Below, piece by piece: positions 17,971-32,363 of a DNA stretch of 64,000 bases (position 1 is its first letter; each line of letters opens with the position of its first letter). The position numbers were made by a program, and so were the translations under genes. Location: positions 1 through 64,000 of the forward strand of contig DAZV01000057.1 of NCBI GenBank assembly GCA_002083825.1. Direction: 5' to 3'. The notes beneath the pieces are model-generated. The model did no database searches, had not been told where the DNA came from, and saw only the letters and a program-made list of their open reading frames with translations. Source of the stretch: Candidatus Sericytochromatia bacterium S15B-MN24 CBMW_12 (lineage in GTDB: Bacteria > Cyanobacteriota > Sericytochromatia > S15B-MN24 > UBA4093).

Positions 17971-20004
17971 ATGACGTCACCTCACGCATCCATCCTGGTC
18001 GTTGGTGCTGACGGATTTAACCGGGAGGATCTAGCGGGGCAAGACTTCGAGGTGACCCTCGTCGATGATGGGCCGCAAGCTCTAGATTTGCTCAAACAAA
18101 ACCAGTTCGATCTCGCCCTCGTCGATCTGCAGAGTGCCGGTTTGGAGGGGCTCCGGACCCTCGAAGCCATGAAGTCCCTCGATCCCAGCCTCGAGGTCAT
18201 CGTGACGACGGTTTCGTCCGACATCGAGACCGCTATCGCCAGCGTGCAAGGTGGTGCGTATGACTACCTCATCAAGCCATACCCCCGTGCCGAGTTGCGT
18301 TTCACTCTGGGGCGAGCGATGGAGAAGTGCAACCTCGAGAGGATCAATCTCCTGTACGAGGCGAGTACTACCCTGCTCGGAACTCCCAATCCCGAGGATC
18401 TGCTCGATCTCGCCCTGAGTCTTGCGGGGCATGTGCTCAAGACCAGCGAGATGGGACTCGCCGTGCTCCGGACCGATCGAGACGGCTACCACCTGTACCG
18501 ATCGAGTCAGAGTCAGAAGTATTCCGACACCCTCCTTGCCCCATTTGTTCAGCGTGCTCTTGAGGCCGACAAGCCGCTCTTCTTGCGTTTCGAGCCGACT
18601 GAGGGGGATTCAGCACATCTTGCGCTTAACCAAGCGGATGCCGGGTATGCTTTCCCTCTGCACGTGGGGGATCGGCACCTCGGGGCCCTGGTGATGGTGC
18701 GGGAGATCTCGCTGCCTGCCTTCACCCCGGCCAATCTGCAGCAAGGAAAATTCCTCGCCTCCCAGATCGCGCTGGCGCTCGACAACGCGCGACTCTATAG
18801 CGAACTCTCGAAGGCCGAAGAACGCACGCGGCTCAACGAGGGCAGGCTCCAGGCCATCGTGAATGCCGCCTTCGACGGGATCATCACGCTCGATCGAAAG
18901 CTGTCCATCGTGGCCATGAACCCCGAGGGCGAACGTATCTTCGATCGTTCCAGCGTAAAAGCGGCAGGCTTGCCATTCCTCATGCTCGTCGATCAGCTCG
19001 GCAAGCGTGACGGTACCCTCCGGGAGGCTCGAGGCATCGAGGCCAGGGTGATTCTGCCCGACGGCCCCTCGAGGCCCGTCGAACTCTCCATCACGGAATT
19101 CGAGACCGCGGATGGTGGCGGGTTCGTGTCTTTCGTTCGGGATGTCAGCGAGACCAAGCGCATCGAGGTGGAGTTGCGCCATTCCCAGAAGCTCGAAGCC
19201 GTCGGTCGCCTATCTGCGGGTATCTCCCACGAGATCAACACCCCCACGCAGTACGTCGGCGACAGCATTCACTTCCTGAAGGGCGCCTTCGCCGACCTGG
19301 CCACCATGATCGCCGCCTACCAGGCGTTGCTGGGCAGTGCGGTCGAGGCCCGTTTCGGGCCGGAGGAGATCGCGCGCCGCGAGGAAGCCGAGGAAGATGC
19401 CGATCTGGAGTATCTGATGGAAAACGTGCCCAGGGCCATCGACCGTGCGCTTGATGGCGTTTCGCGGGTGGCGACGATCGTTCAGGCCATGAAGCAGTTC
19501 GCTTACCCCGATCGTGAGGAGAAGTCCAGCGCCGATCTCAACAAGGGGATTCTCAGCACCCTGGCCGTCGCCAACAGCGAAATCAAGTACCTGGCCAAGG
19601 TTTCTACCGATCTCGGGGACCTCCCCCCGGTGATCTGCCATATCGGGGACCTCAATCAGGTCGTACTCAACCTCCTGGTGAATGCCGCTCATGCCATCGA
19701 GGATAACCACCAGCCCTCGGGAAGCATGGGGTCGATTCACATTCGGACCGTTCAGGAGGGTGAGTGCGTCCTCATCACCGTTCGCGATTCCGGATCCGGC
19801 ATTCCGGAGGCCATCCGCGAGAAGATTTTCGAGCCCTTCTTCACCAGCAAGACCGTGGGGCGCGGTACGGGCCAGGGACTGGCCTTGGCTCGTGCCATCG
19901 TGGTGGATAAGCATGGGGGGGAGATTTGGTTCGAGAGCGAGCAGGGCCTGGGAACGACCTTTTTCATCAGACTGCCGATCAACGGCGGGGAGGGGACCCG
20001 ATGA
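17971..20004 (+). CDS. Hybrid REC-GAF-PAS sensor histidine kinase
   Basis: A 677-residue soluble kinase. The N-terminal REC domain (about 5-120) keeps the phospho-acceptor region (LALVDLQ) and the lysine (LIKPYP), but the usual acidic DD pair is replaced by VVGADG, so Mg binding may be impaired. A GAF-type domain spans about 130-280 and PAS about 295-405. The kinase core has the H-box LSAGISHEINTPTQYVGD, N-box LNLLVNAAHAIED, G1 DSGSGIP and G2 GTGQGLALARAIV. The ISHEINTP type with N-terminal REC recalls kinases controlling c-di-GMP or motility outputs. It overlaps the next gene by ATGA; the operon continues through 22410. Confidence 0.9.
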   Translation: MTSPHASILVVGADGFNREDLAGQDFEVTLVDDGPQALDLLKQNQFDLALVDLQSAGLEGLRTLEAMKSLDPSLEVIVTTVSSDIETAIASVQGGAYDYLIKPYPRAELRFTLGRAMEKCNLERINLLYEASTTLLGTPNPEDLLDLALSLAGHVLKTSEMGLAVLRTDRDGYHLYRSSQSQKYSDTLLAPFVQRALEADKPLFLRFEPTEGDSAHLALNQADAGYAFPLHVGDRHLGALVMVREISLPAFTPANLQQGKFLASQIALALDNARLYSELSKAEERTRLNEGRLQAIVNAAFDGIITLDRKLSIVAMNPEGERIFDRSSVKAAGLPFLMLVDQLGKRDGTLREARGIEARVILPDGPSRPVELSITEFETADGGGFVSFVRDVSETKRIEVELRHSQKLEAVGRLSAGISHEINTPTQYVGDSIHFLKGAFADLATMIAAYQALLGSAVEARFGPEEIARREEAEEDADLEYLMENVPRAIDRALDGVSRVATIVQAMKQFAYPDREEKSSADLNKGILSTLAVANSEIKYLAKVSTDLGDLPPVICHIGDLNQVVLNLLVNAAHAIEDNHQPSGSMGSIHIRTVQEGECVLITVRDSGSGIPEAIREKIFEPFFTSKTVGRGTGQGLALARAIVVDKHGGEIWFESEQGLGTTFFIRLPINGGEGTR

Positions 20005-21182
20005 AGCGCATTCTCTTTGTCGACGACGAGCCGGGTGTCCTCGAAGGGATCCGCGATCTCTTGCGCCCTTATCGACGCAAGTGGGACATGGTCTTCGTCG
20101 TCAGCGGCGAAGCAGCGCTTGAAGAGCTGGAGCGCGCGCCTTTCGACATCATCGTCTCGGACATGCGCATGCCGCAAATGGATGGCGCGACGCTTCTCAA
20201 GGCCGTCCAGACGCGATTTCCCCGGGTGGTGCGCTTCATCCTCTCGGGCTATTCGGAATTCGAAGCGTCCCTTAGCAGCGTGTCCGTCGCACACCAGTTC
20301 CTCAGCAAACCCTGCGATCCCGAGCAATTCCGCGGTGCCCTGGAACGCGCTTGCAGCCTTCGTGACCTCCTCAACGATGAGGCGCTCATGGCGACCATCG
20401 GCGAGATCTCCAGCCTGCCTTCCGTGCCTGCCGCATACCGGGCAATCACCCGTGCGCTCGAGAACCCGGACGCCAAAGTCAAGGAGATTGCCGCCATCAT
20501 CGAGCAGAACTCCGTGATTTGCGCGAAAATCCTCCAAGTGGCCAACTCCGCTTTTTTCGCTCCCGCTCATCGCGTCTCGAGCATCGCGGAGGCCGTCAGT
20601 TACCTGGGGATCACCATGCTGAAGACGCTCGTGCTCTCCTTCGAGTCGTTCGGCCATTTTCGCATGGGGATGCGGGTGCCGGAGGCTGAAATCGACCGCC
20701 TACAGCGGAGAGCCTTGCTCACCGCGAGGCTCTGCAGGCAGATCGCGGGTCCGATCGGGGCCGAGGAGGCTTTCACCAGTGGCCTTCTTCATGACATCGG
20801 GTATCTGATCATCGCCTATTATTTGCCCGATCGGTATAAGCGCCTTTTGGCTGCAAGTCAGGCAGAGGGACGTCCCTTTCACGAACTCGAGCGGGAGTTC
20901 TACGGAATTACGCATGCCGAGCTAGGCGCCTATCTTCTGGGCTTGTGGGGGCTACCCAACCCCATCGTGGAAGCCGTCGCGCACCACCACGAGCCTTGGC
21001 GCGTGCCCCACGCGGCGTTTGGAAGCCTGGATGCTCTCTACGTAGCCGACGTCCTGATCCTCGAACAAGAGGGATCAGGCGCGACCCCACCGCTGAATGT
21101 CCTCCACCTCGAGACCTTGGCTGCGCCGGCCGAGGTGCATCACTGGCGTGAACTCGCCCGGGAGCTGATGACGCATGACTAA
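20001..21182 (+). CDS. Response regulator with HDOD output domain
   Basis: A 393-residue protein. REC (about 1-120) is complete: ILFVDDE, the phospho-acceptor in IIVSDMRMPQMDG and the lysine in FLSKPC. The HDOD domain (about 140-340) carries LPSVPAAYRAI and VICAKILQVANSAFF, then a metal-dependent-HD-like GLLHDIGYL and a later VAHHHEPW. HDOD proteins are signalling adaptors, usually non-catalytic, tied to c-di-GMP and stress networks. The ATGA overlap with the upstream kinase and the 8-nt overlap with the next gene show a tightly coupled operon, so this is the likely phosphotransfer partner. Confidence 0.9.
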   Translation: MKRILFVDDEPGVLEGIRDLLRPYRRKWDMVFVVSGEAALEELERAPFDIIVSDMRMPQMDGATLLKAVQTRFPRVVRFILSGYSEFEASLSSVSVAHQFLSKPCDPEQFRGALERACSLRDLLNDEALMATIGEISSLPSVPAAYRAITRALENPDAKVKEIAAIIEQNSVICAKILQVANSAFFAPAHRVSSIAEAVSYLGITMLKTLVLSFESFGHFRMGMRVPEAEIDRLQRRALLTARLCRQIAGPIGAEEAFTSGLLHDIGYLIIAYYLPDRYKRLLAASQAEGRPFHELEREFYGITHAELGAYLLGLWGLPNPIVEAVAHHHEPWRVPHAAFGSLDALYVADVLILEQEGSGATPPLNVLHLETLAAPAEVHHWRELARELMTHD

Positions 21183-22410
21183 GAAGACCTCCCCGCTGCC
21201 TCGCATCCTCTTCGTCGACGACGAAGCTAACTTGCTCGAAGGGGTTTCAGTAGCATTACGGCGTCACTTCGAAGTGGTCACCGCCATCAGCGGCGTGGCT
21301 GCGCTCGCCCTGATGAAGGTCCAGGAACCCTTTGCCGTGGTGGTCGCCGACATGCGCATGCCCGTCATGAACGGTGCGGCCTTCCTGAGCCGCGCGCGGG
21401 AGGAAGCGCCTGACATGGTGCGCATCCTGCTGACCGGTCAGACCGATCTGGAGTCTGCCATCACTGCGGTGAACCAAGGCGGCATCTTCCGCTTCCTCTC
21501 CAAGCCATGTCAACCCGATCTGCTCTTGAACTCCCTCCAAGAGGCCATCGACCAGCACCATCTGCTCACCGCCGAGCGGGTTCTGCTGGAAGAGACCCTT
21601 CATGGTTGCATCCAAACCCTCACGGATGTTCTGGCCCTCAGCCAACCCACGGCGTACGGAAAGGTGCGACGCGCCCAGCAGCGGGTGGGTCGGCTTGCCG
21701 CCAGCCTCAAGATCTCAAACCGCTGGGAAGTCGAGGTCGCCGCCATGCTGTCTCAGATCGCCTGCGTGACGCTTCCTCCCTCCACGGTGGCGAAGCAATA
21801 CCTCGGACAACCGCTGGACGATACCGAGCAGGACATGATCCGCCGCCTCCCTCTGGTGACCGATCTGCTGCTCGCGAACATCCCTCGGATCGAGGGCATC
21901 CGGACAATCCTGAGGCATCAGGGCACGCGTTTCGACGGAGCCGGCGGTCCCGAGTCCGGGCTGAAGGGGGGAAGCCTCCCATGGGGAGCGCGCGCCCTCA
22001 AGATCGCGCTGGACTTTGACGAACTCGAGGCCCAGGGAATGCGGACCTCCGAGATTCACTTGACCTTGCAAGAACGCCAGGGGTGGTATGATCCCCATCT
22101 CTTGAAGGCTTTTATCGCCCTCTTCGAGGTTTCCGATTCCGAAGAGATCGTCCGGCTCCACACGCTCGCCGAACTCAAGAACGGCATGATCTTTGCCGAG
22201 GACGTCTGCAACTCCGACGGTGCGGTCTTGGTTGCTCGAGGCCATGTGGTCACGGCGGGCCTGCTGGCGCGTCTCAAGAACTTCTCTTTCGACAAGCTCA
22301 GCTTCCGAGTCAGTATCCCCAGTCCTCCCGAGCCCCTCGCCGATCCCGTTCCCGCCCTTGCAACCACGGCTCCCCCGCAAGCCGATGGCGGGGATCGATC
22401 GTCGCCTTGA
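21175..22410 (+). CDS. Response regulator with degenerate HD-GYP domain
   Basis: A 411-residue protein. REC (about 8-128) is intact, with ILFVDDE, VVVADMRMPVMNG and FLSKPCQPD. The second half resembles RpfG-type HD-GYP phosphodiesterases: the terminal signature region survives as HQGTRFDGAGGPESGLKGG followed by ALKIALDFDEL. The catalytic HDxGK segment is replaced (AAMLSQIACVTLPPS), so c-di-GMP hydrolysis is unlikely and a binding or scaffold role is inferred. A Pro/Ala-rich tail ends the protein. It overlaps the HDOD gene by 8 nt and is the last gene of the signalling operon. Confidence 0.85.
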   Translation: MTKKTSPLPRILFVDDEANLLEGVSVALRRHFEVVTAISGVAALALMKVQEPFAVVVADMRMPVMNGAAFLSRAREEAPDMVRILLTGQTDLESAITAVNQGGIFRFLSKPCQPDLLLNSLQEAIDQHHLLTAERVLLEETLHGCIQTLTDVLALSQPTAYGKVRRAQQRVGRLAASLKISNRWEVEVAAMLSQIACVTLPPSTVAKQYLGQPLDDTEQDMIRRLPLVTDLLLANIPRIEGIRTILRHQGTRFDGAGGPESGLKGGSLPWGARALKIALDFDELEAQGMRTSEIHLTLQERQGWYDPHLLKAFIALFEVSDSEEIVRLHTLAELKNGMIFAEDVCNSDGAVLVARGHVVTAGLLARLKNFSFDKLSFRVSIPSPPEPLADPVPALATTAPPQADGGDRSSP

Positions 22411-24119: not shown

Positions 24120-25613
24120 CTACCAGAACCTGACGCTGTTTTGCCAGCCTCTGCCGGGATGGGGCTTGGTGGCGGAGACGGCGGCGAAGGCGTTGACTCG
24201 GCCCTCGCCGAACTGCGCGTCGAATCCGGCGGCGCCCAGGTCGTCGGCGCTTTCGAAGAGCGTCGCGACGACCTTCTTGGGCTGGGCTCGGAAGTGGCCG
24301 CGCTTCGAGATGACCAGGGCGGCGACGCCGGCGACGTGAGGGGCGGCCATGGAGGTCCCCGCCATCATGAAGTAGGGGGCCGGCTGGAAAGGCATGCCTT
24401 CGACGGTCTGGCGAACGGCGTGGTTGCTCCAGGTGCTGTAGATGAAGCCGGCCGGGCTGATGCCGGTCGGGGTGATGATGACGCCTCCGCCGGGAGCCGC
24501 GAGATCGACGATTCGCTTGCCGGAGTTGCTGTAGAAGTTCGCGAATGAGTCGTAGTCAGTTCCGGTGGCGGGCCCGGTCGCCGAGACACCGATATTGTGC
24601 TCGAGCATGGCGGGAATTCGGATGTCGGTGTTGTTGTCGTAGTTGGTGCGCTCGTTACCCACTGAACTGACGACCACCGCTCCGCGCCGGAAGGCGAAGC
24701 GAACGGCCTTCTGCATCTTTCGATTGAGCGACTCGCCGGCTGCATCGCCTTGCGCGAAGCGAGCACCGAAGCTCATGTTGATGACGTCGGCGCCCGCGGA
24801 CGACGCGTAGACGATTCCCTTGATGACCTGGTCGAAGTTCGACTCGCCCTTGTAGTTGTTGACCTTGAGGGCCATGAGGCGCGCGTGGGGGGCGACTCCC
24901 GTGACGCCCGTGCCGTCGGCCGCAGCCGCGATGATGCCCGCCACGTGACTCCCGTGACCGCGCAGGTCCAGGACGTCGTTGTTGTCGGCGTTGGGGCCAT
25001 CGTTCTGGATGAAGGAGCGCGAGGCCCAGTGAATGCGCCCGGCGAACTCGGGGTTGGTGTAGTCGATACCCGAATCCAGCACCGCCACGGTGACTCCCTT
25101 CCCGGTGGCTCCCGCCGTCCAGGCCTCGGGGGCATGGATGGCCTTGAGGCCCCATTGCATCGGGCTGAACGTCAGGTCTGAACTGCCCACTTGAGAGTCA
25201 TCCGAACCATTGACCGGCATGGCCTGCACCGAGTCAGCGGAGAACCAGTTGACCACCCGATCGGCGACGATGCTCTCGACGCCGGCAATCCTGGCCGCAT
25301 TCTCCTCGAAGTCGGGATGGCTCGAAAGAACGGTGGCCAAGCCGACGCCCTCGTAGGAATCAGCAAGCGTTCCGCCAACCTGCGCCAGGGCCTTCTTGAA
25401 ATCCTTGGGAATCGAATCACCGGTGAATTCCACCAGGTACTGGGTCCGGTTTCCCACCGAGGCGACGCGCCACTCGGTCGTCTTCTGCTGAAGGGCATTC
25501 CCCTGGGGAGCGACGGTCGCGACGAGCGCCGTGGGCTGGCTTTGGCAGCCTGCCAAGAGCGTGAGCCCCAAGGTAAAGGCCATGGTGCGGGCGAGGTTCT
25601 TGCTTGGTCTCAT
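24120..25613 (-). CDS. Subtilisin-like serine protease (S8), lipoprotein
   Basis: A 497-residue secreted protease. The signal peptide ends in the lipobox LLAGCQ (about residue 22). A propeptide-like I9 domain spans about 45-125 (TQYLVEFTGDSIPKDFKKAL). The S8 catalytic domain has all three triad residues: Asp in VAVLDSGIDYTNPEF, His in RGHGSHVAGIIAA and Ser in GTSMAAPHVAGVAAL. It is predicted to be tethered outside the membrane and to degrade extracellular protein. The start is ATG 25613 (GAGGAGG 6 nt upstream). Three 11-bp direct repeats lie about 105-140 nt upstream. Confidence 0.92.
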   Translation of the reverse strand: MRPSKNLARTMAFTLGLTLLAGCQSQPTALVATVAPQGNALQQKTTEWRVASVGNRTQYLVEFTGDSIPKDFKKALAQVGGTLADSYEGVGLATVLSSHPDFEENAARIAGVESIVADRVVNWFSADSVQAMPVNGSDDSQVGSSDLTFSPMQWGLKAIHAPEAWTAGATGKGVTVAVLDSGIDYTNPEFAGRIHWASRSFIQNDGPNADNNDVLDLRGHGSHVAGIIAAAADGTGVTGVAPHARLMALKVNNYKGESNFDQVIKGIVYASSAGADVINMSFGARFAQGDAAGESLNRKMQKAVRFAFRRGAVVVSSVGNERTNYDNNTDIRIPAMLEHNIGVSATGPATGTDYDSFANFYSNSGKRIVDLAAPGGGVIITPTGISPAGFIYSTWSNHAVRQTVEGMPFQPAPYFMMAGTSMAAPHVAGVAALVISKRGHFRAQPKKVVATLFESADDLGAAGFDAQFGEGRVNAFAAVSATKPHPGRGWQNSVRFW

Positions 25614-25783: not shown

Positions 25784-27235
25784 TCAGTCGAGTGCGAAGG
25801 CACGCAGCAACAGGTGGGTCAGCATCCAGGTCATGTACCCCGCGATTCCCACCGTGTAGGCCCCTCCGAACGCGCTGTACCACAGGAAGGCCCGATGCTC
25901 GCGCGGGGTCCTGGCTTCCGAGACGCCGACTTCCTTTCCGAGCATGCTTGCCATTCGCTCGTCCAGCGAGGCGAAGGCCCGAGAGCGCAGGTTGGGTATC
26001 TCCAGCCAATCGGTGAGGATGTAATACCCGTCGAGCTTGAGCAGGGGGTTGAGGTTGGCCAGGGTCGAAACCATGGTCACCGCCACGAACTGGGCCAGGA
26101 CCAAGGCCACGGCGGAAGGCATCGGCAGCCACGCCCAGGCGATGGCAAAGAGGGAGGCCACGGCGAGTTGAACGTAGATCCCCGCCGCGCCCACGATCAT
26201 GCGGTCGCGCTTCGAGGCGAAGCGGTGGGCGTCGCTGACGTCGCAAAAGGCCATGGGAGCCAGGACGTAAAGCATGATGCCCATGCGCCGGACTTGGCCG
26301 CCGAAGGCCCGGCAGGCCATGGCATGGCCGTATTCATGGATGATCGAGGAAAGCAGCATGGCGGCGATGAAGCTTCCGACCCCTCCCGCCCAGCGATGCG
26401 TCACGTTTCCGACGACCAGCGTCCAGAGGGAGTTTCCCTGAACGGAAAGCACGCCTGCGGCCAGCGTGACCAGGAGCAAGACGAGTATCAGGCCCGTACT
26501 CGAGAACAGAAGGCGCCCCAGGGGGAACGTTCGATCGAGCAGCTTGCTGGGATCATGAAAGGGAATCCGGACCTGCACCCAGCGGGCCCATCCGGAAGGC
26601 GTCGGGGGAGCAGGGTTGCTCGCGAGATGGGCTTCCGCATCGGGGACGGCGGTCTTGCTTTCCATGCGGATCATGCCGAGGGCCCAGAGCCGGGTGGTCA
26701 GGGTGAGCAGTTGCTCCGGCCAGACCAGTTGCTCGGTCTCCTCCCAGAAACGCCGCGCGATGGCCCCGAAGCTCGTCTCCGAGACGAGGCTTTCCGCGAG
26801 CGCGAATTCCGCCACGCTCAGCTGAACGTGGCGTTCCGCCATGGAAAGGACGACGGCCTGACGGTGGGTTTCGTTCACTCGCGTGACGCCGAGGTCGTCG
26901 TTCCAGCGGAACAGCCCGAGGCTTCGCCAGAGGGGGGACGCGAGGACCGCCTGCGCCTCGAGTGCCTTGGAAATCTGAGCTTCGGAGCACTTCCCGCTGG
27001 CTATCAAGATCTCGCCCAAGAGGTGCGGATCGGACTTTTGAGCGTCAAGGGCCAGCGCGACGTCCTCGGACTTCGCCAAACCGAGTTCCACCAGGACCTC
27101 GCCTATCAGGCGCGGCTGGGGATCGAAGCGAAGGAGCCCCTCGATGAGGTCCGGCGACGTAGAGCGCTCGGACTTACGGGTAGGGGGGGAGTCGGCCGCA
27201 TTTTCGTTGGGAAATCGTGAGGTTTGGTCCATCAT
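25784..27235 (-). CDS. M50 peptide zinc metalloprotease with N-terminal MshEN-like repeats
   Basis: A 483-residue membrane protease. Two tandem repeats at about 40-95 (RLIGEVLVELGLAKSEDVAL and HLLGEILIASGKCSEAQISK) follow the RLGExLVxxG pattern of MshEN domains, some of which bind c-di-GMP. After a linker come about six hydrophobic segments with the S2P zinc motif HEYGHA and the second signature NLNPLLKLDGYY, as in YydH-type peptide metalloproteases of peptide-maturation loci. It lies divergent from a precursor-like gene and a radical SAM gene. The start is ATG 27235 or the next codon. TATGAT (27272-27277, minus) is a candidate -10. Confidence 0.85.
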   Translation of the reverse strand: MMDQTSRFPNENAADSPPTRKSERSTSPDLIEGLLRFDPQPRLIGEVLVELGLAKSEDVALALDAQKSDPHLLGEILIASGKCSEAQISKALEAQAVLASPLWRSLGLFRWNDDLGVTRVNETHRQAVVLSMAERHVQLSVAEFALAESLVSETSFGAIARRFWEETEQLVWPEQLLTLTTRLWALGMIRMESKTAVPDAEAHLASNPAPPTPSGWARWVQVRIPFHDPSKLLDRTFPLGRLLFSSTGLILVLLLVTLAAGVLSVQGNSLWTLVVGNVTHRWAGGVGSFIAAMLLSSIIHEYGHAMACRAFGGQVRRMGIMLYVLAPMAFCDVSDAHRFASKRDRMIVGAAGIYVQLAVASLFAIAWAWLPMPSAVALVLAQFVAVTMVSTLANLNPLLKLDGYYILTDWLEIPNLRSRAFASLDERMASMLGKEVGVSEARTPREHRAFLWYSAFGGAYTVGIAGYMTWMLTHLLLRAFALD

Positions 27236-27261
27236 GTATCAGCATCGGTAAGGGCAGGGGG

Positions 27262-27271
27262 ACGCTAGCGT
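27262..27271. promoter_or_regulatory. Palindrome ACGCTAGCGT next to the protease -10
   Basis: A perfect 10-bp palindrome directly beside the TATGAT -10 candidate on the minus strand, a position where a repressor would block initiation. Weak evidence by itself. Confidence 0.35.
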
Positions 27272-27386
27272 ATCATACCCTGCCAAGCGTGGAATCACGC
27301 CATTGCGGGCCGGATCTGAGGTCATCGTGAAGGTTGCGTAAATATTGCACCCGCATTAAGCAAGCGTAGGACCTGGTTCAAATGTT

Positions 27387-27416
27387 GGTTATTGCTGGTT
27401 CTTGGCGGTTATTGGC
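27387..27416 (+). promoter_or_regulatory. Three tandem 10-bp direct repeats upstream of the precursor gene
   Basis: GGTTATTGCT, GGTTCTTGGC and GGTTATTGGC follow each other without spacers (period 10), about 70-100 nt upstream of the precursor start. The period is one helical turn, and both sequence and period differ from the 11-bp TTAA arrays. It may be an operator for the locus. Confidence 0.5.
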
Positions 27417-27485
27417 TGCGTGAAGAGGGTAGGATGAGCTAGACGGATGATACAGGCAATCCCCTTGCTGGAAGGAGACCGATGT

Positions 27486-27698
27486 ATGAACAACAAGCAA
27501 GTCATTGAGTTCGTGAATCGCCTTGCCGTTGATGAGACGCTTCGCGGCAACCTCGAGGCCGACTTCGAGGGAACGCTTTCCGAGAACGCTATCTCGCTCA
27601 CGGCGCGGGAGTTGTCGTCGCTGAAGGCCAGCTGGCGCTTCATCAAGGATGTCGACCCGATGGAGCTCGAGGCTCGCTTCGTCGCCGACGACTGCTAG
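27486..27698 (+). CDS. Candidate ribosomally made precursor peptide
   Basis: A 70-residue peptide starting MNNKQVIEFVNRLAVDETLR. The acidic, helical N-terminal two-thirds, with FVNRLAVDETLRGNL and AISLTARELSSL, resembles Nif11 or Franean1_4349-type leader peptides, though I cannot assign a family. The C-terminal part (SWRFIKDVDPMELEARFVADDC) ends in the protein's only cysteine. The start is ATG 27486, with AAGGAG 8 nt upstream; an upstream in-frame ATG at 27447 has no SD. A terminator-like hairpin follows, then a radical SAM gene, the usual arrangement for a highly expressed RiPP precursor. No clear GG or GA cleavage motif is visible. Confidence 0.6.
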   Translation: MNNKQVIEFVNRLAVDETLRGNLEADFEGTLSENAISLTARELSSLKASWRFIKDVDPMELEARFVADDC

Positions 27699-27720
27699 GC
27701 CGCATCGAAAAGGTATCCTC

Positions 27721-27758
27721 CGGGGGAGGGCGGCGAGGGCTGCCTGTCCCCCGTTTTT
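27721..27758 (+). terminator. Intrinsic attenuator between precursor and radical SAM genes
   Basis: CGGGGGA (27721-27727) faces TCCCCCG (27747-27753) and is followed at once by TTTTT. It lies 23 nt after the precursor stop and 19 nt before the radical SAM start, so partial read-through would give much more precursor than enzyme mRNA. Confidence 0.8.
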
Positions 27759-27776
27759 GATCAAGGAATCTCACGA

Positions 27777-28796
27777 ATGCCTCACGAGCGCGACATCTTT
27801 CACCTTCAGCTCTCGGTGACCAACGCCTGCAACTTGCAGTGCGTTCACTGCTACCGCGAGGAGACCAAGGCCTTCCGGGATGAACTATCGGTCGAGGAGA
27901 TGATCGCACTCTTCCAGGATTTCAAGGCTTTTTCCGAGCGCCTCGACATGGACGGAGTGGTGACGTTCGGCGGGGGAGAGCCGTTGCTGCGACGGGATCT
28001 GGGGCTTCTCGCCAAGGTCGCCCATTCCGCCGGGCTGGGCGTCCGCGTCATCTCCAACGGAGTGCTATCGGCCAAGCAGGCTGAAAACCTGGCCGACTGG
28101 GGTATCCGCCTGGTCCAGATCAGCGTCGATGGCGCGACCGCCGAGGTGCACGATCGCGTGCGTGGCCAGGGCATGTTCGATCGCACCATGGAGGGCATCC
28201 GTCACCTCGTGGCGGCGGGCATCACCGTGAACCTCAAGGCCACCCTGATGAAGGGCTACAACGATCACCAGATCCCCGAGTTCTTCGCGCTCGCCAACGC
28301 GGCCAAGGTCCCCGTCCTGTCCTTCGGTCGACTCATCCCCATCGGGGCGGGCGCCGATCTCATGCGCCTGACGCCTGAGGAGTATCGCCACATCTACGAC
28401 CAAATATCCGAGGAAGCCATGCGCTCTCCCGAAACCCGCGTCGAGTTCCGCGAGCCCGGTTTCGACCGCTCCATGGCCTGGGGACGGAAGCAGGACTTTC
28501 GCTCCAGCGAGGGAAATCGTCACCTCGCCATCGATGCGGATGGCACCGTCTACTCCAGTCGCCGCATGGGCGAGAAGATCGGCAATATCCGCCGCTCCTC
28601 GCTCGACGAGCTCTGGCAGCATCCTCTGCTCGTCACCCTCCGCGAGGGGCAGGTGAAGGGTAAGTGCCAATCCTGCGAGCTCTACGCGGTCTGCAAGGGT
28701 GGCTCGCGCGCGGCTGCCTTCGCCTCGACCGCCGATCCGCTCGCCGAGGATCCGGATTGCTGGTTCAGTCCCGCGCGTCTTCCGGTCAACGCGTAA
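27777..28796 (+). CDS. Radical SAM/SPASM peptide-modifying enzyme
   Basis: A 339-residue radical SAM protein. The [4Fe-4S] motif is CNLQCVHCY (Cys-x3-Cys-x2-Cys, about residue 20), followed by the SAM-contact GGGEPL. The C-terminal SPASM-type region (about 295-335) carries CQSCELYAVCKGG and a further Cys near the end, enough for an auxiliary cluster. Such enzymes make thioether, C-C or epimerised centres in RiPPs, or mature enzyme cofactors. Its neighbours (a small Cys-ending peptide, a peptide metalloprotease, an ASKHA protein) favour peptide modification. The next gene starts inside its stop codon (TAATG). Confidence 0.9.
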   Translation: MPHERDIFHLQLSVTNACNLQCVHCYREETKAFRDELSVEEMIALFQDFKAFSERLDMDGVVTFGGGEPLLRRDLGLLAKVAHSAGLGVRVISNGVLSAKQAENLADWGIRLVQISVDGATAEVHDRVRGQGMFDRTMEGIRHLVAAGITVNLKATLMKGYNDHQIPEFFALANAAKVPVLSFGRLIPIGAGADLMRLTPEEYRHIYDQISEEAMRSPETRVEFREPGFDRSMAWGRKQDFRSSEGNRHLAIDADGTVYSSRRMGEKIGNIRRSSLDELWQHPLLVTLREGQVKGKCQSCELYAVCKGGSRAAAFASTADPLAEDPDCWFSPARLPVNA

Positions 28797-29956
28797 TGCC
28801 CAAGGCTCTAGGCATCGACCTTGGCAACGCCAAGGTCAAATTCTGCTTGCTGGAAACCACCTCTCTGGACGCGGTCCCCCAGGGCTTTTCGGCAAGCTGG
28901 GGTGGAGGCCTCATTCCCTTCACCGCCAAGCTGCTTCCGGATCGGCAAGAAGACTTCGAGACGGGCTTTCCCGCGGCGCTGGCACGGTTCATGATAGCTC
29001 ATGCACTCGCACCCGAGGATCTGGACGTGGTGGTCGTTTCCACCAGCCACTTCTTCGCCTATCCCTCGTTCGAGGCCGCCCATCGTCATACCTTGAACTT
29101 GCTGGAGCGCTGCTTCATCCCCGAAACTGTCCGCCTGCTCGGATCCGAGGGGCGGCTCTACTCGCTCGCGGAGGCCCGCAAACTCGAGGGGCGAGAAGTC
29201 GTGAGGTTTGCGGCCACCAAGTTCTGGGGCTCGGCTTATCTCGCGTCGAAGTTGATACGCGACGGCATCTCCATCGACATCGGAACCAGCTCGACGGATC
29301 TGGTTCCGATCGTGGCCGGCGTGCCGGATCCCGAAGCCCAGCGCGACCCCGATGCCTACAATCTGGGGCGCCTTGCGACCGAGCGCTTCATCTGGTACGG
29401 AATGACGGCGACCCCTCTGGATTACATCAGTCATGAGGCCGAAGCGGATGGGGCGCGCTGGCTTCTCTACCCCAGGATGGCCAAGACGGAAGTCTTGACG
29501 TCGCTACTCGCCCTGGCCCCGCGGGATCTCACCGAGGCGCATGCCTACGGGGGAAGGTTTCCCAGCATCGAGGCTTCGCGTTACCAGCTGGCTCAGGCCT
29601 GCGGGCTGGACGTGGCGTTGATCGGGGAGGGGACCTTGAAGGCGATCGCCGAGGATCTCTCCCGCCGCATGGTCGATCGCATTGCCGAGAGCATTCGCAA
29701 GGTCGCCGCTCACGCGGGGATCTTTTCGCTCGACGAAGCCCAGGGTGCGGTCATGGGGCTAGGACGCGCGACGGTGGCGCGCGAGGCCATGGTTCGGGCG
29801 GGCTTCCGTCCGGAACACCTGGTGGACGTCGAGGACGTTCTGGGGGAAGGGCTGTCGAGTGTCTCGACGGCTTACGGCGCCGCCCTCAAGGGGCTCGAAG
29901 CCGTGCTCGGCACGGAGCTGAGTATTCCGGAACCGAGCCTCATGCCGTCAACTTGA
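28796..29956 (+). CDS. MfnF-like ASKHA-family protein
   Basis: A 386-residue protein opening with an ASKHA ATP-binding motif (ALGIDLGNAKVKFCLLE). The central SIDIGTSSTDLVPIVAG is the second phosphate motif and is closely patterned on the DIGSTTTDIIPI of H4MPT-linked C1-transfer proteins (MfnF, hydantoinase/oxoprolinase relatives). The following RLATERFIWYGMTATPLDYI and YGGRFPSIEASRYQLAQACG also align by eye. MfnF makes a methanofuran intermediate, but nothing here indicates methanofuran synthesis. Translational coupling to the radical SAM gene (TAATG) suggests joint action. It overlaps the convergent SpoIIE gene by 17 nt. Confidence 0.75.
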   Translation: MPKALGIDLGNAKVKFCLLETTSLDAVPQGFSASWGGGLIPFTAKLLPDRQEDFETGFPAALARFMIAHALAPEDLDVVVVSTSHFFAYPSFEAAHRHTLNLLERCFIPETVRLLGSEGRLYSLAEARKLEGREVVRFAATKFWGSAYLASKLIRDGISIDIGTSSTDLVPIVAGVPDPEAQRDPDAYNLGRLATERFIWYGMTATPLDYISHEAEADGARWLLYPRMAKTEVLTSLLALAPRDLTEAHAYGGRFPSIEASRYQLAQACGLDVALIGEGTLKAIAEDLSRRMVDRIAESIRKVAAHAGIFSLDEAQGAVMGLGRATVAREAMVRAGFRPEHLVDVEDVLGEGLSSVSTAYGAALKGLEAVLGTELSIPEPSLMPST

Positions 29957-32363
29957 GCGTGACCAGCGTGATATCGTCGAAGGGGATTCCATCGCCCGTG
30001 AAGTCGCGGATCTCTCCGAGAATTCGCTCCTGAATCTGGTGGGGAGATAGCCCGAGGTTCTGCGTGATGAGCGCTTCCACCCGCTCTTCCCCGAACTGCT
30101 CTCGCTCCGGGTTCATCGCGTCCTCGGCACCATCCGAGTAGAGCACCAGCATGTCGCCAGCGTTCATGGTGATGGTCTGCTCCGTATAGCTCATCGTGCC
30201 CATCACTCCCAGGGAGACTCCCTTCGCTTCGAGCCTGCCCACGCTGCCTATCGGGAAGGGGTTTCCGGCGTTGGCGAAGCAAAGGCTCTTGTCCCGCGCG
30301 TCGTAGATGGCGTAGAAGGCCGTGACGAACATCTTGTTGGAGGGACGGTTGAGGTAGATCAGCGCGTTGGCCTTGGCCATGACCGAAGCAGCCGAATCGT
30401 TGCCGCCGGCGATGGAGCGGAAGATGACGAGGGTCATGGCCATCATGAGGGCCGCCGGAACACCCTTTCCGGAGACGTCGCCTATCAGGATACCCAGTCG
30501 GTTCTCATCGATCCGGATGACGTCGTAGAAATCGCCGCCGACTTCCAGGGCGGGCTTGGAGATGGCCGCCAGTTCGATACCGGGAAGGGTGGGGATCTTG
30601 GCGGGGAGGAGTCCGGCCTGGACTTCGGCGGCGATTTCCAGTTCGCGCTTGAGGCGAACCTGGCTCGCCACCTGGCCGATGAGCTGGGTGATCTTGAGCC
30701 AGACGGCCAACTGCTGGGCGAGGTTGACCAAGAGTAGGCGGTCGATCTCCTTGTATTCCAGGTCCGACTTGCGGGAGCCTATCAGCACGCAGCCGATGAT
30801 AGTGTCCTTGTCGAGCAGAGGCAGGGCCAGCGCGCGCATGATGCCTCCGAACGCCGCGTGTTCGTCGGAGATGGGTTTGCCGGTTCGGCTCAGGTTGGCG
30901 AAGTTCGGATCGTTCACCGAGAGCGTGAGCTTGCTGCTTGGTCCGAGGCCGAGGGATTCCTTGAGGTGAAGCTCGTCGGTGCCCTCCTGGCGCAGCAAGA
31001 TGGCGAGGCTGCCCGGGTGGAGCGCGTGCTCCACCTGTTTAACGAAGGCGCAGAGCAACTGCTGGGAGTCGATGGTTTCTCGGGCCTCGTCGCCGAACTC
31101 GGAGACGATCTTCTGGAAGTCGTAGCCGGTTCGGAAGAAGATGCGATCGACCATGATCTTGACGCGGTCGCGCATGGGGGCGAAGGCCAGGGTGACGGTC
31201 ACGGTCGCCAGGATATTGGCTAACGCCGAATGGTTCCCCATCAGCATGCGCACGCCGCCGATCATGAGGAAGTAAAGGCCGAAAAGGGCCGAGGTGACGA
31301 TGGCGTAGGTGATGGTCCGTTTGACGATGACGTCGATGTTGAAGAGCTTGTGGCGGACGATGGTGTAGGCGACCGAAAGCGGGAAGAGGGTGATCGCGAG
31401 ATAGGCGAGCTCGGCGCCTGGGAACGAGAGCCCGAAGAAAAAGCCGATATTGACGGCAATCGCCGGGACGAACGCCATGGAGGCCCCGGTGAGGATCACC
31501 TTCGCTTGAGAGCGCTGAAGGACGGTGCTGGTAGGGCTTTTCATGGTCCAGACGGCGGCTGCGGGGAGGCTCACCGTGCCCAGCGAACCGTAGGCCGTGA
31601 GCAGGAGGTAGGTCGAGAACCACCGTTCCGCGGCGAAGTAGCTGCCCAGGATGAAGAGCGTGACCAAGCCACCGAGGCCGAAGCTTGCCCAGCGAATCCA
31701 TGGGTGTCGATCGAGGATGGGCATCCTTCGTGGCAACTGCATGGCCAGATCGATAGCGAAGGTCCCGAGCAGGCAGAAGGCCGCTGTGTGGGGAACCAGC
31801 GCGAAGAAATAGGTGGTCGAGGCCTCGAAGTGGCTGAGAAAGAAGAACGCGAAGATCAAGCAGAACAGCAAGTGGGCTCTTGCAACCGGATCTCGGGGCT
31901 TGACGATCGAAACGAACGCTCCGATGAGAATGTGGAAGAAGCCCATCAACCAGAAGGAGCCGAAGATCCCCGACCAGTCCCAGAACGAATAGGTCTGGGT
32001 GGGAACCACCTTGGTCAAGCGCTTGGCCTCGCCCGGCCCGAAGGCGCGTTCGATTTCGTAAGTGATGTTGCTTCCCACCGGTTTGGCGGCTGCGTAGCGG
32101 TAGATCATCTCGCTGGAGGCGACGGGCATGCCATCCATGGCGATGATCCTGTCGGCTGCCTGCATGCCCGCTTGAATTCCGTTCCAGCGCGGGGAGTAGA
32201 GCGAATCCAGGCACTGGTTCTGGAGGACCAGAAAGCCCGGGAACGAGCGATTGATCCACCCCATGGACAGCACGAGGCAAGCGGCACTGAACACGATCAA
32301 GAGAGAGATCGTCATCCAGAAGCCGGTTTTTTCGGCGATACGAGGCATGGTTAGCGTATTCAT
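29940..32363 (-). CDS. Membrane-bound SpoIIE/RsbU-type PP2C phosphatase
   Basis: An 807-residue protein. One transmembrane helix (about 14-36) is followed by a PDZ-like periplasmic segment (about 55-115; GIQAGMQAADRIIAMDGMPV), a block of roughly seven to eight transmembrane helices (about 130-390), a GAF-like domain (about 425-565), a coiled linker (RLKRELEIAAEVQAGLLP) and a PP2C domain with GGDFYDV, GDVSGKGVPAALMM, LYSDGAEDA and FDDITLV. It is likely the phosphatase that reactivates the STAS protein at 12713-13063. No clear SD precedes ATG 32363. It lies 9 nt downstream of the terpene-cyclase-like gene. Confidence 0.9.
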   Translation of the reverse strand: MNTLTMPRIAEKTGFWMTISLLIVFSAACLVLSMGWINRSFPGFLVLQNQCLDSLYSPRWNGIQAGMQAADRIIAMDGMPVASSEMIYRYAAAKPVGSNITYEIERAFGPGEAKRLTKVVPTQTYSFWDWSGIFGSFWLMGFFHILIGAFVSIVKPRDPVARAHLLFCLIFAFFFLSHFEASTTYFFALVPHTAAFCLLGTFAIDLAMQLPRRMPILDRHPWIRWASFGLGGLVTLFILGSYFAAERWFSTYLLLTAYGSLGTVSLPAAAVWTMKSPTSTVLQRSQAKVILTGASMAFVPAIAVNIGFFFGLSFPGAELAYLAITLFPLSVAYTIVRHKLFNIDVIVKRTITYAIVTSALFGLYFLMIGGVRMLMGNHSALANILATVTVTLAFAPMRDRVKIMVDRIFFRTGYDFQKIVSEFGDEARETIDSQQLLCAFVKQVEHALHPGSLAILLRQEGTDELHLKESLGLGPSSKLTLSVNDPNFANLSRTGKPISDEHAAFGGIMRALALPLLDKDTIIGCVLIGSRKSDLEYKEIDRLLLVNLAQQLAVWLKITQLIGQVASQVRLKRELEIAAEVQAGLLPAKIPTLPGIELAAISKPALEVGGDFYDVIRIDENRLGILIGDVSGKGVPAALMMAMTLVIFRSIAGGNDSAASVMAKANALIYLNRPSNKMFVTAFYAIYDARDKSLCFANAGNPFPIGSVGRLEAKGVSLGVMGTMSYTEQTITMNAGDMLVLYSDGAEDAMNPEREQFGEERVEALITQNLGLSPHQIQERILGEIRDFTGDGIPFDDITLVTLKLTA

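Follow-up and report, generated by a model that had tools for sequence, protein, structure and literature searches.

A candidate peptide-maturation cassette pairing a radical SAM/SPASM enzyme with an MfnF-like ASKHA protein in Sericytochromatia

The window analysed here is a whole stretch of 64,000 nucleotides from Candidatus Sericytochromatia bacterium S15B-MN24 CBMW_12 (contig DAZV01000057.1, here G000:C42), part of a 3.9 Mb draft genome with an estimated contamination of 6.7%. Between positions 24120 and 29956, it harbors a gene cassette in which the genes of an S8 peptidase and an M50 metalloprotease lie on the minus strand, and those of a small peptide, a radical S-adenosylmethionine (SAM) enzyme with a SPASM domain and an ASKHA protein lie divergently on the plus strand. 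An original prediction made from the DNA letters had proposed a peptide-maturation locus at this site. Upon re-reading of the sequence, the coordinates and motifs of the M50, peptide, radical SAM/SPASM and ASKHA genes, the gene order and the TAATG coupling of the last two genes were all borne out. Overlooked at that time was the S8 gene next to the M50 gene (24120–25613, minus strand), which is a nearly constant member of the cassette.

The peptide gene (27486–27698, plus strand) is preceded by AAGGAG and encodes 70 residues, the sole Cys being the last one. It is conserved in four other genomes (G001, G006, G007, and G009), and the window genome possesses a second, stand-alone copy (G000:C35). 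All six complete peptides, namely the five cassette copies and G000:C35, have exactly one Cys, at the terminal position. The terminal Cys claimed beforehand is thus confirmed, whereas the claimed acidity is not a family trait: the net charge is −6 in the window peptide and ranges from −6 to +1. The five cassette peptides have Val10, Arg12, Leu19, Leu23, Asp26, Phe27, Gly29, Leu38, Leu46, and Ala48 in common, with identities to the window peptide of 31%–53%. Residues 1–50 are alike among the homologs, and the C-terminal 20 or so residues are variable except for the Cys, which is preceded by residues as different as those in ADDC, TPAC, GIGC, and SIGC. As is general for ribosomally synthesized and post-translationally modified peptides (RiPPs), a conserved short precursor gene stands beside a modifying enzyme, and its leader is distinct from a variable core.

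The second copy shares 63 of its 70 residues with the window peptide, and its flanks are unrelated. At the DNA level, 25 of the 35 base changes between the two genes fall on third positions (dN 0.064, dS 0.86, dN/dS about 0.07), and judged from these substitutions, the second copy is under purifying selection; given the contamination of the genome, it could in principle stem from another organism. The conservation in relatives, together with the low dN/dS of the second copy, indicates that the peptide is encoded by a real, selected gene. Between the peptide and radical SAM genes there is a G+C-rich, terminator-like hairpin with a U-tract (27721–27758, plus strand; −33.3 kcal/mol). The attenuator originally proposed is visible as this hairpin, yet its stability is modest against shuffled sequences (z = −1.7); folding detected it, and a terminator scanner gave no call. 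G001 has a comparable hairpin (z −2.7), and the G000:C35 copy is followed by a strong terminator (z −4.6). Moreover, the leader domain of Os1348/Nif11-type nitrile hydratase leader peptide (NHLP) precursors (model NF038399 of the Os1348-family NHLP clan) has a match in each of the six complete peptides over residues 9–51 or so, with E-values of 2e-6 to 1e-3 and 19–28 bits, below the curated cut-off of 40 bits. Being conserved, duplicated, matched by this model below threshold in six copies and directly followed by a terminator-like hairpin, the peptide resembles a RiPP precursor. Neither a double-Gly core nor an NHLP exporter was found at the locus.

We searched 146 relatives with the ASKHA protein and inspected the resulting loci. 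Peptide, radical SAM and ASKHA genes are present together in five genomes of two families: the window genome and G001 (family f1), and G006, G007, and G009 (family f4, which also comprises G008 and belongs to the same taxonomic order as f1). In G002 (family f2) and G008, the S8 gene is accompanied by the divergent first codons of a peptide gene at the contig end (MHNEFINKLEISEEMKQQLRLEADLCPVELEARIMAGTK.. and MLVNSEIRK..); these fragments cover the N-terminal part only, their C-termini lying beyond the contig end. The lack of a conserved small frame in related genomes had been named as fatal to the original prediction; such a frame is conserved upstream of the radical SAM gene in four other genomes. 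The expected co-occurrence with the radical SAM–ASKHA pair held for the Cys-ending peptide (five genomes) and only in part for the M50 gene, which is absent beside the f4 cassettes. When 18 whole genomes were searched with a peptide profile, matches were confined to those that have the pair, G000:C35 being the one extra stand-alone copy. Scanning 84,980 genomes with a profile of the radical SAM C-terminus yielded two same-clade records, matching G009 and G006, and a heme-type (NirJ/AhbD-like) paralogue in Defluviicoccus; among these genomes, the cassette radical SAM subfamily is found solely in this clade. A scan of 84,980 genomes with the ASKHA sequence alone gave zero matches, its patterns being too specific.

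The radical SAM/SPASM enzyme (27777–28796, plus strand; Radical_SAM E 3e-28, SPASM E 1e-7) retains, as do the other cassette enzymes, the CX3CX2C motif and the CX2CX5C...C ligands of auxiliary cluster II (AuxII). In all five cassette enzymes, alignments revealed that three cysteines are gone: the first one of the SPASM motif, that of GX4C, and the final one of CX3C, where CxGGSRAAA has Ser instead. The assignment made for AhbD places exactly these three cysteines at the auxiliary cluster I (AuxI) site (PMC10452713). By this alignment, the cassette enzymes have lost the AuxI cysteines and kept all AuxII cysteines. They accordingly have a SPASM fold with a partial motif rather than the full seven-Cys motif, and nonetheless score above the Pfam SPASM cut-off. 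Some SPASM/Twitch enzymes with one auxiliary site, including some AhbD (PMC10452713), likewise combine the core with one complete auxiliary Cys set; the cassette enzyme, in contrast, is a full-length SPASM protein minus exactly the AuxI set and is not AhbD (151 bits, cut-off 500). Canonical SPASM motifs are seen in the homologs of G002 and of family f6, and the tree of these enzymes is compatible with one AuxI loss and with several. Such a clean loss of one auxiliary cluster provides a natural experiment on the purpose of that cluster. Two homologs in family f7 (L063 5091–6155 and L064 5783–6820) also are without the AuxI cysteines (MGVSYLAID.., CLGGN), and no Cys-ending partner gene is visible just upstream of either.

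The top match of the radical SAM enzyme in the Protein Data Bank is SkfB (E 3e-16), and the SPASM/Twitch class contains thioether makers. The enzyme might link the sulfur of the terminal Cys to a carbon in one of the preceding residues, following sactipeptide or ranthipeptide logic, to give a small C-terminal ring with the ASKHA protein as an accessory. The single Cys per peptide, with none internal in any complete peptide, would suit such a product. However, the varying residues before the Cys offer no fixed acceptor, the coupled ASKHA gene is left unexplained, and the core of known sactipeptides usually holds several Cys residues. We consider this thioether chemistry rather improbable.

The best radical SAM homolog of each f6 genome (G011–G014; E about 1e-50) is preceded by a gene for a protein of about 175 residues that ends in GC (L066 5101–5634, L065 4883–5446, L069 5133–5648, and L068 3917–4453). 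This protein has a Pro-rich N-terminus, a probably helical remainder and the end (DDP)GC, the residues just before GC being undetermined in G014. Homology with the cassette peptide was rejected (hhalign probability 0.2%). As two unrelated precursor types have only the last residue in common, the terminal Cys is suggested to be what the radical SAM enzyme needs; the members within each precursor type are homologous, and the f6 protein counts as about one extra independent observation. In f6, a gene for a large protein (about 970 residues) lies upstream of both the 175-residue protein gene and the radical SAM gene.

The same agreement of two unrelated proteins in the terminal Cys alone, and the limitation of invariance in the C-terminal part to this residue, would also be expected if the peptide were a carrier, on which the Cys is modified and then cut off by the S8 or M50 protease as a small molecule or cofactor, like a pearlin or pyrroloquinoline quinone. 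In the pearlin pathways to 3-thiaglutamate and 3-thiahomoleucine, the product is built on the C-terminal Cys of a carrier peptide, with a radical SAM enzyme in one case (TmoD), and is released by a membrane protease (PMC9303977). Unlike the cassette Cys, which is genetically encoded, the pearlin Cys is added by a peptide aminoacyl-tRNA ligase (PEARL), and the pearlin radical SAM enzyme is cobalamin-dependent rather than of the SPASM type. Furthermore, no DUF692 (TglH-type) enzyme was found in six genomes, in a search whose positive controls rang; a 3-thia-type pearlin was rejected on this ground, DUF692 defining the thia-amino-acid branch only. A search for the PEARL ligase (Lant_dehydr_N) gave zero matches, with the controls likewise silent. 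A carrier-peptide pathway is a possibility that we entertain tentatively. Both it and the thioether are chemical versions of our preferred reading, a RiPP-type system targeting the C-terminal Cys; they fit nearly as well, and their probabilities overlap with that of the preferred reading.

The stop codon of the radical SAM gene and the start codon of the ASKHA gene (28796–29956, plus strand) have one base in common within TAATG. Such a stop/start overlap occurs in four of the five cassettes and, at the level of gene arrangement, ties the ASKHA protein to the radical SAM enzyme. Only two family matches of the ASKHA protein are convincing, TIGR03123 (E 1e-21, 77 bits, cut-off 244) and MfnF (NF040623; E 2e-8, 33.8 bits, equivalog cut-off 520), both far under the cut-offs. 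Its predicted structure (mean confidence, pLDDT, of 92) has 3cet/3c0b as the top Foldseek match (E 1e-19), all others being no better than about 1e-8. MfnF and TIGR03123 proteins, which thus belong to the same fold family, sit with methanofuran and tetrahydromethanopterin genes, whereas the cassette protein is paired with a radical SAM enzyme and a peptide. MfnF couples aminomethylfuran diphosphate, with diphosphate as the leaving group, to an acceptor of the tyrosine or tyramine type (PMC8141765). Taken alone, an MfnF-like role of the cassette ASKHA protein is speculative. The methanofuran/tetrahydromethanopterin cofactor pathway was ruled out, since MfnB is absent from the nine genomes searched and two methanogen controls rang; the radical SAM homologs are therefore not tied to that pathway, the second ground on which the original prediction was to fall.

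The original prediction had also assigned an ATP-dependent step to the ASKHA protein. In such a case it could be an ATP-dependent enzyme or an activase feeding electrons to the radical SAM clusters, like the activators of 2-hydroxyacyl-CoA dehydratases or RACo. The fold indeed keeps the phosphate-loop residues Asp161 and Gly163, and the activators 1hux and 3zyy are among the lower Foldseek matches. However, these reach only 1e-7 to 1e-6 against 1e-19 for 3cet/3c0b, and the nearest relatives by both sequence and predicted fold are MfnF and TIGR03123. As MfnF acts by linking a nucleophile with a diphosphate ester, likeness to it does not imply ATP use (PMC8141765). In addition, no Cys that could hold a bridging Fe-S cluster is common to 13 aligned ASKHA homologs, making a role as Fe-S activase unlikely. 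The assigned step is thus not supported, and we regard an ATP-dependent role of any kind as unlikely.

The M50 protein (25784–27235, minus strand), a membrane metalloprotease, carries the motifs HEYGHA and NLNPLLKLDGYY and resembles the daptide protease MpaP, sharing its architecture (Peptidase_M50 E 2e-7; daptide_HExxH 185 bits, below the cut-off of 300). Residues 44–95 form an MshEN-like motif predicted to bind cyclic di-GMP (26951–27106, minus strand; NF053729 45.4 bits, cut-off 38), which also matches the PilF and MshE structures by sequence. The motif is missing from the homologs of G001 and G002; cyclic di-GMP may be linked to peptide processing in the window organism. The stretch that separates this motif from the protease domain, residues 100–203, was modelled with AlphaFold2 (pLDDT 85), and approximately residues 108–192 (26660–26914, minus strand) are predicted to adopt a winged helix like that of a RiPP recognition element (RRE). 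RREs are present in about half of the prokaryotic RiPP classes. The top folds retrieved by Foldseek are mostly leader-binding ones: TbiB1 with its leader, TglHI, MccB, McbBCD, TruD, ThcOx, PqqD, and CteB (E 0.017 to 0.6, probability near 1 for the top matches). The G007 homolog matches PqqD by sequence (E 1e-4). The M50 protein thus has a predicted RRE-like domain, for which the E-values are weak but the consistency of the matches is telling. In daptides, the leader peptidases are likewise RREs fused to M50 domains (PMC10036551).

The S8 gene has the Shine–Dalgarno sequence GAGGAGG ahead of its ATG at 25613 and encodes a subtilisin-type peptidase with the lipoprotein signal LLAGC (Pfam S8 E 4e-52). 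Its subgroup (E 1e-63 to 1e-87) stands apart from the many paralogues per genome, the nearest of which reach about 1e-40, and it is found in the window genome and in G001, G002, G006, G007, G008, and G009, in contrast to none of the seven searched genomes without the cassette. In six of these seven genomes the S8 gene neighbors the peptide gene, the M50 gene standing between them in f1 and f2; the exception is G009, with its short contigs. A strict lipobox is seen in four of the seven proteins and near-lipoboxes in the others. From these signals, the S8 protein is probably a processing protease acting outside the cytoplasm, and it is a more constant cassette partner than the M50 protease.

Among known systems, the cassette is closest in logic to the daptides (MpaA–MpaP; PMC10036551), which also combine a small precursor, an invariant C-terminal residue, an RRE-M50 site-2 leader peptidase and more than one precursor copy. 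Daptides, however, end in an invariant Thr instead of Cys (all six complete peptides here), and employ an oxidative decarboxylase, an aminotransferase and a methyltransferase in place of the radical SAM and ASKHA proteins. The cassette thus resembles daptides in logic and pearlins in target, and fails the defining tests of both (the Thr and DUF692, respectively). It is very probably of RiPP type and belongs to no described RiPP class that we found.

We therefore favor, with a probability of about 0.6, a RiPP-type maturation system with the C-terminal Cys as its target. Several observations weigh against this reading. The NHLP-type matches of the peptide all stay below threshold, the E-values of the RRE-like fold are weak, and the radical SAM enzyme is without an RRE-like extension of its own. 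The M50 gene adjoins the peptide gene in the window genome, G001, and G002 only; the proposal of a precursor-like peptide beside a radical SAM enzyme and an M50 protease with an RRE-like domain therefore holds in the window, whereas the protease is not universal in the cassette. In G002, the peptide fragment holds an internal Cys, the sole related radical SAM enzyme has a canonical SPASM motif and is encoded some 9 kb away from the truncated gene of that peptide, and the ASKHA gene sits on a separate contig. No exporter gene adjoins the cassette. Finally, related ASKHA genes in f6 stand alone by unrelated genes, so the ASKHA protein need not be tied to a peptide, and the family presumably has other roles.

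The last point, and the recurrence of a SpoIIE-like phosphatase gene as a nonspecific neighbor, would also fit a conserved small regulatory protein lying by chance beside the enzymes of some other cofactor, with the proteases and the phosphatase as ancestral neighbors. Against such a non-RiPP origin stand the restriction of the peptide to genomes with the radical SAM–ASKHA pair, the modelled RRE-like domain, the terminal Cys kept at peptide identities as low as 31%–53%, and the absence of the methanofuran pathway. We regard it as distinctly unlikely.

For the favored RiPP-type system, we infer that the peptide is the enzyme substrate, and we propose the chemistry, export and order of steps as follows. 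The peptide would be produced in excess, owing to the hairpin 3' of its gene and the stand-alone second copy, and its N-terminal 50 or so residues would serve as the leader. The radical SAM enzyme, with only the AuxII cluster site, would modify the peptide at or beside its last residue, the Cys. The ASKHA protein, co-translated with this enzyme, might afterwards act on the same residue and, from its kinship with MfnF, attach a small group activated by diphosphate, the Cys thiol being the simplest site on the peptide. Where present, the M50 protease with its RRE-like domain would bind the leader and cleave it off at the membrane; outside, the product would be trimmed by the S8 lipoprotein, release being effected by either protease or both. 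In its boldest form, the proposal is of a new class of RiPPs, where an MfnF-type ASKHA protein and a radical SAM enzyme with a single auxiliary cluster build a modified C-terminal Cys, the former placing a diphosphate-activated group on the thiol, with the Cys as a tag on two unrelated precursors in one bacterial class; this extension is doubtful. If true, it would be the first use of an MfnF-type fold in peptide maturation, and would add a peptide-modifying pathway with an MfnF-like ASKHA enzyme to uncultured relatives of cyanobacteria. The open-access literature searched yielded nothing relevant on MfnF, hydantoinase or ASKHA proteins together with radical SAM enzymes or precursor peptides. 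The invariant terminal Cys, the paired radical SAM–ASKHA genes and the 70-residue substrate make up a small, directly testable system.

No Rfam element and no sigma-70-like promoter match were found at the locus. The f6 stand-alone ASKHA genes (L032, L033, L035, L036, and L037) adjoin dnaG–rpoD-like genes, and further ones (L027 and L028) adjoin genes of a gamma-glutamyltransferase and a Ser/Thr kinase, these neighbors being named from our own reading of their sequences. A PDZ/GAF/SpoIIE-type phosphatase gene (29940–32363 in the window) lies 3' of the ASKHA gene in the window, G001, and G006, and a similar fragment is found beside the ASKHA gene in G002; it was rejected as a part of the cassette, since genomes without the cassette have good paralogues. 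Upstream of the locus, the window contains three response-regulator-type genes in a row (17971–22410).

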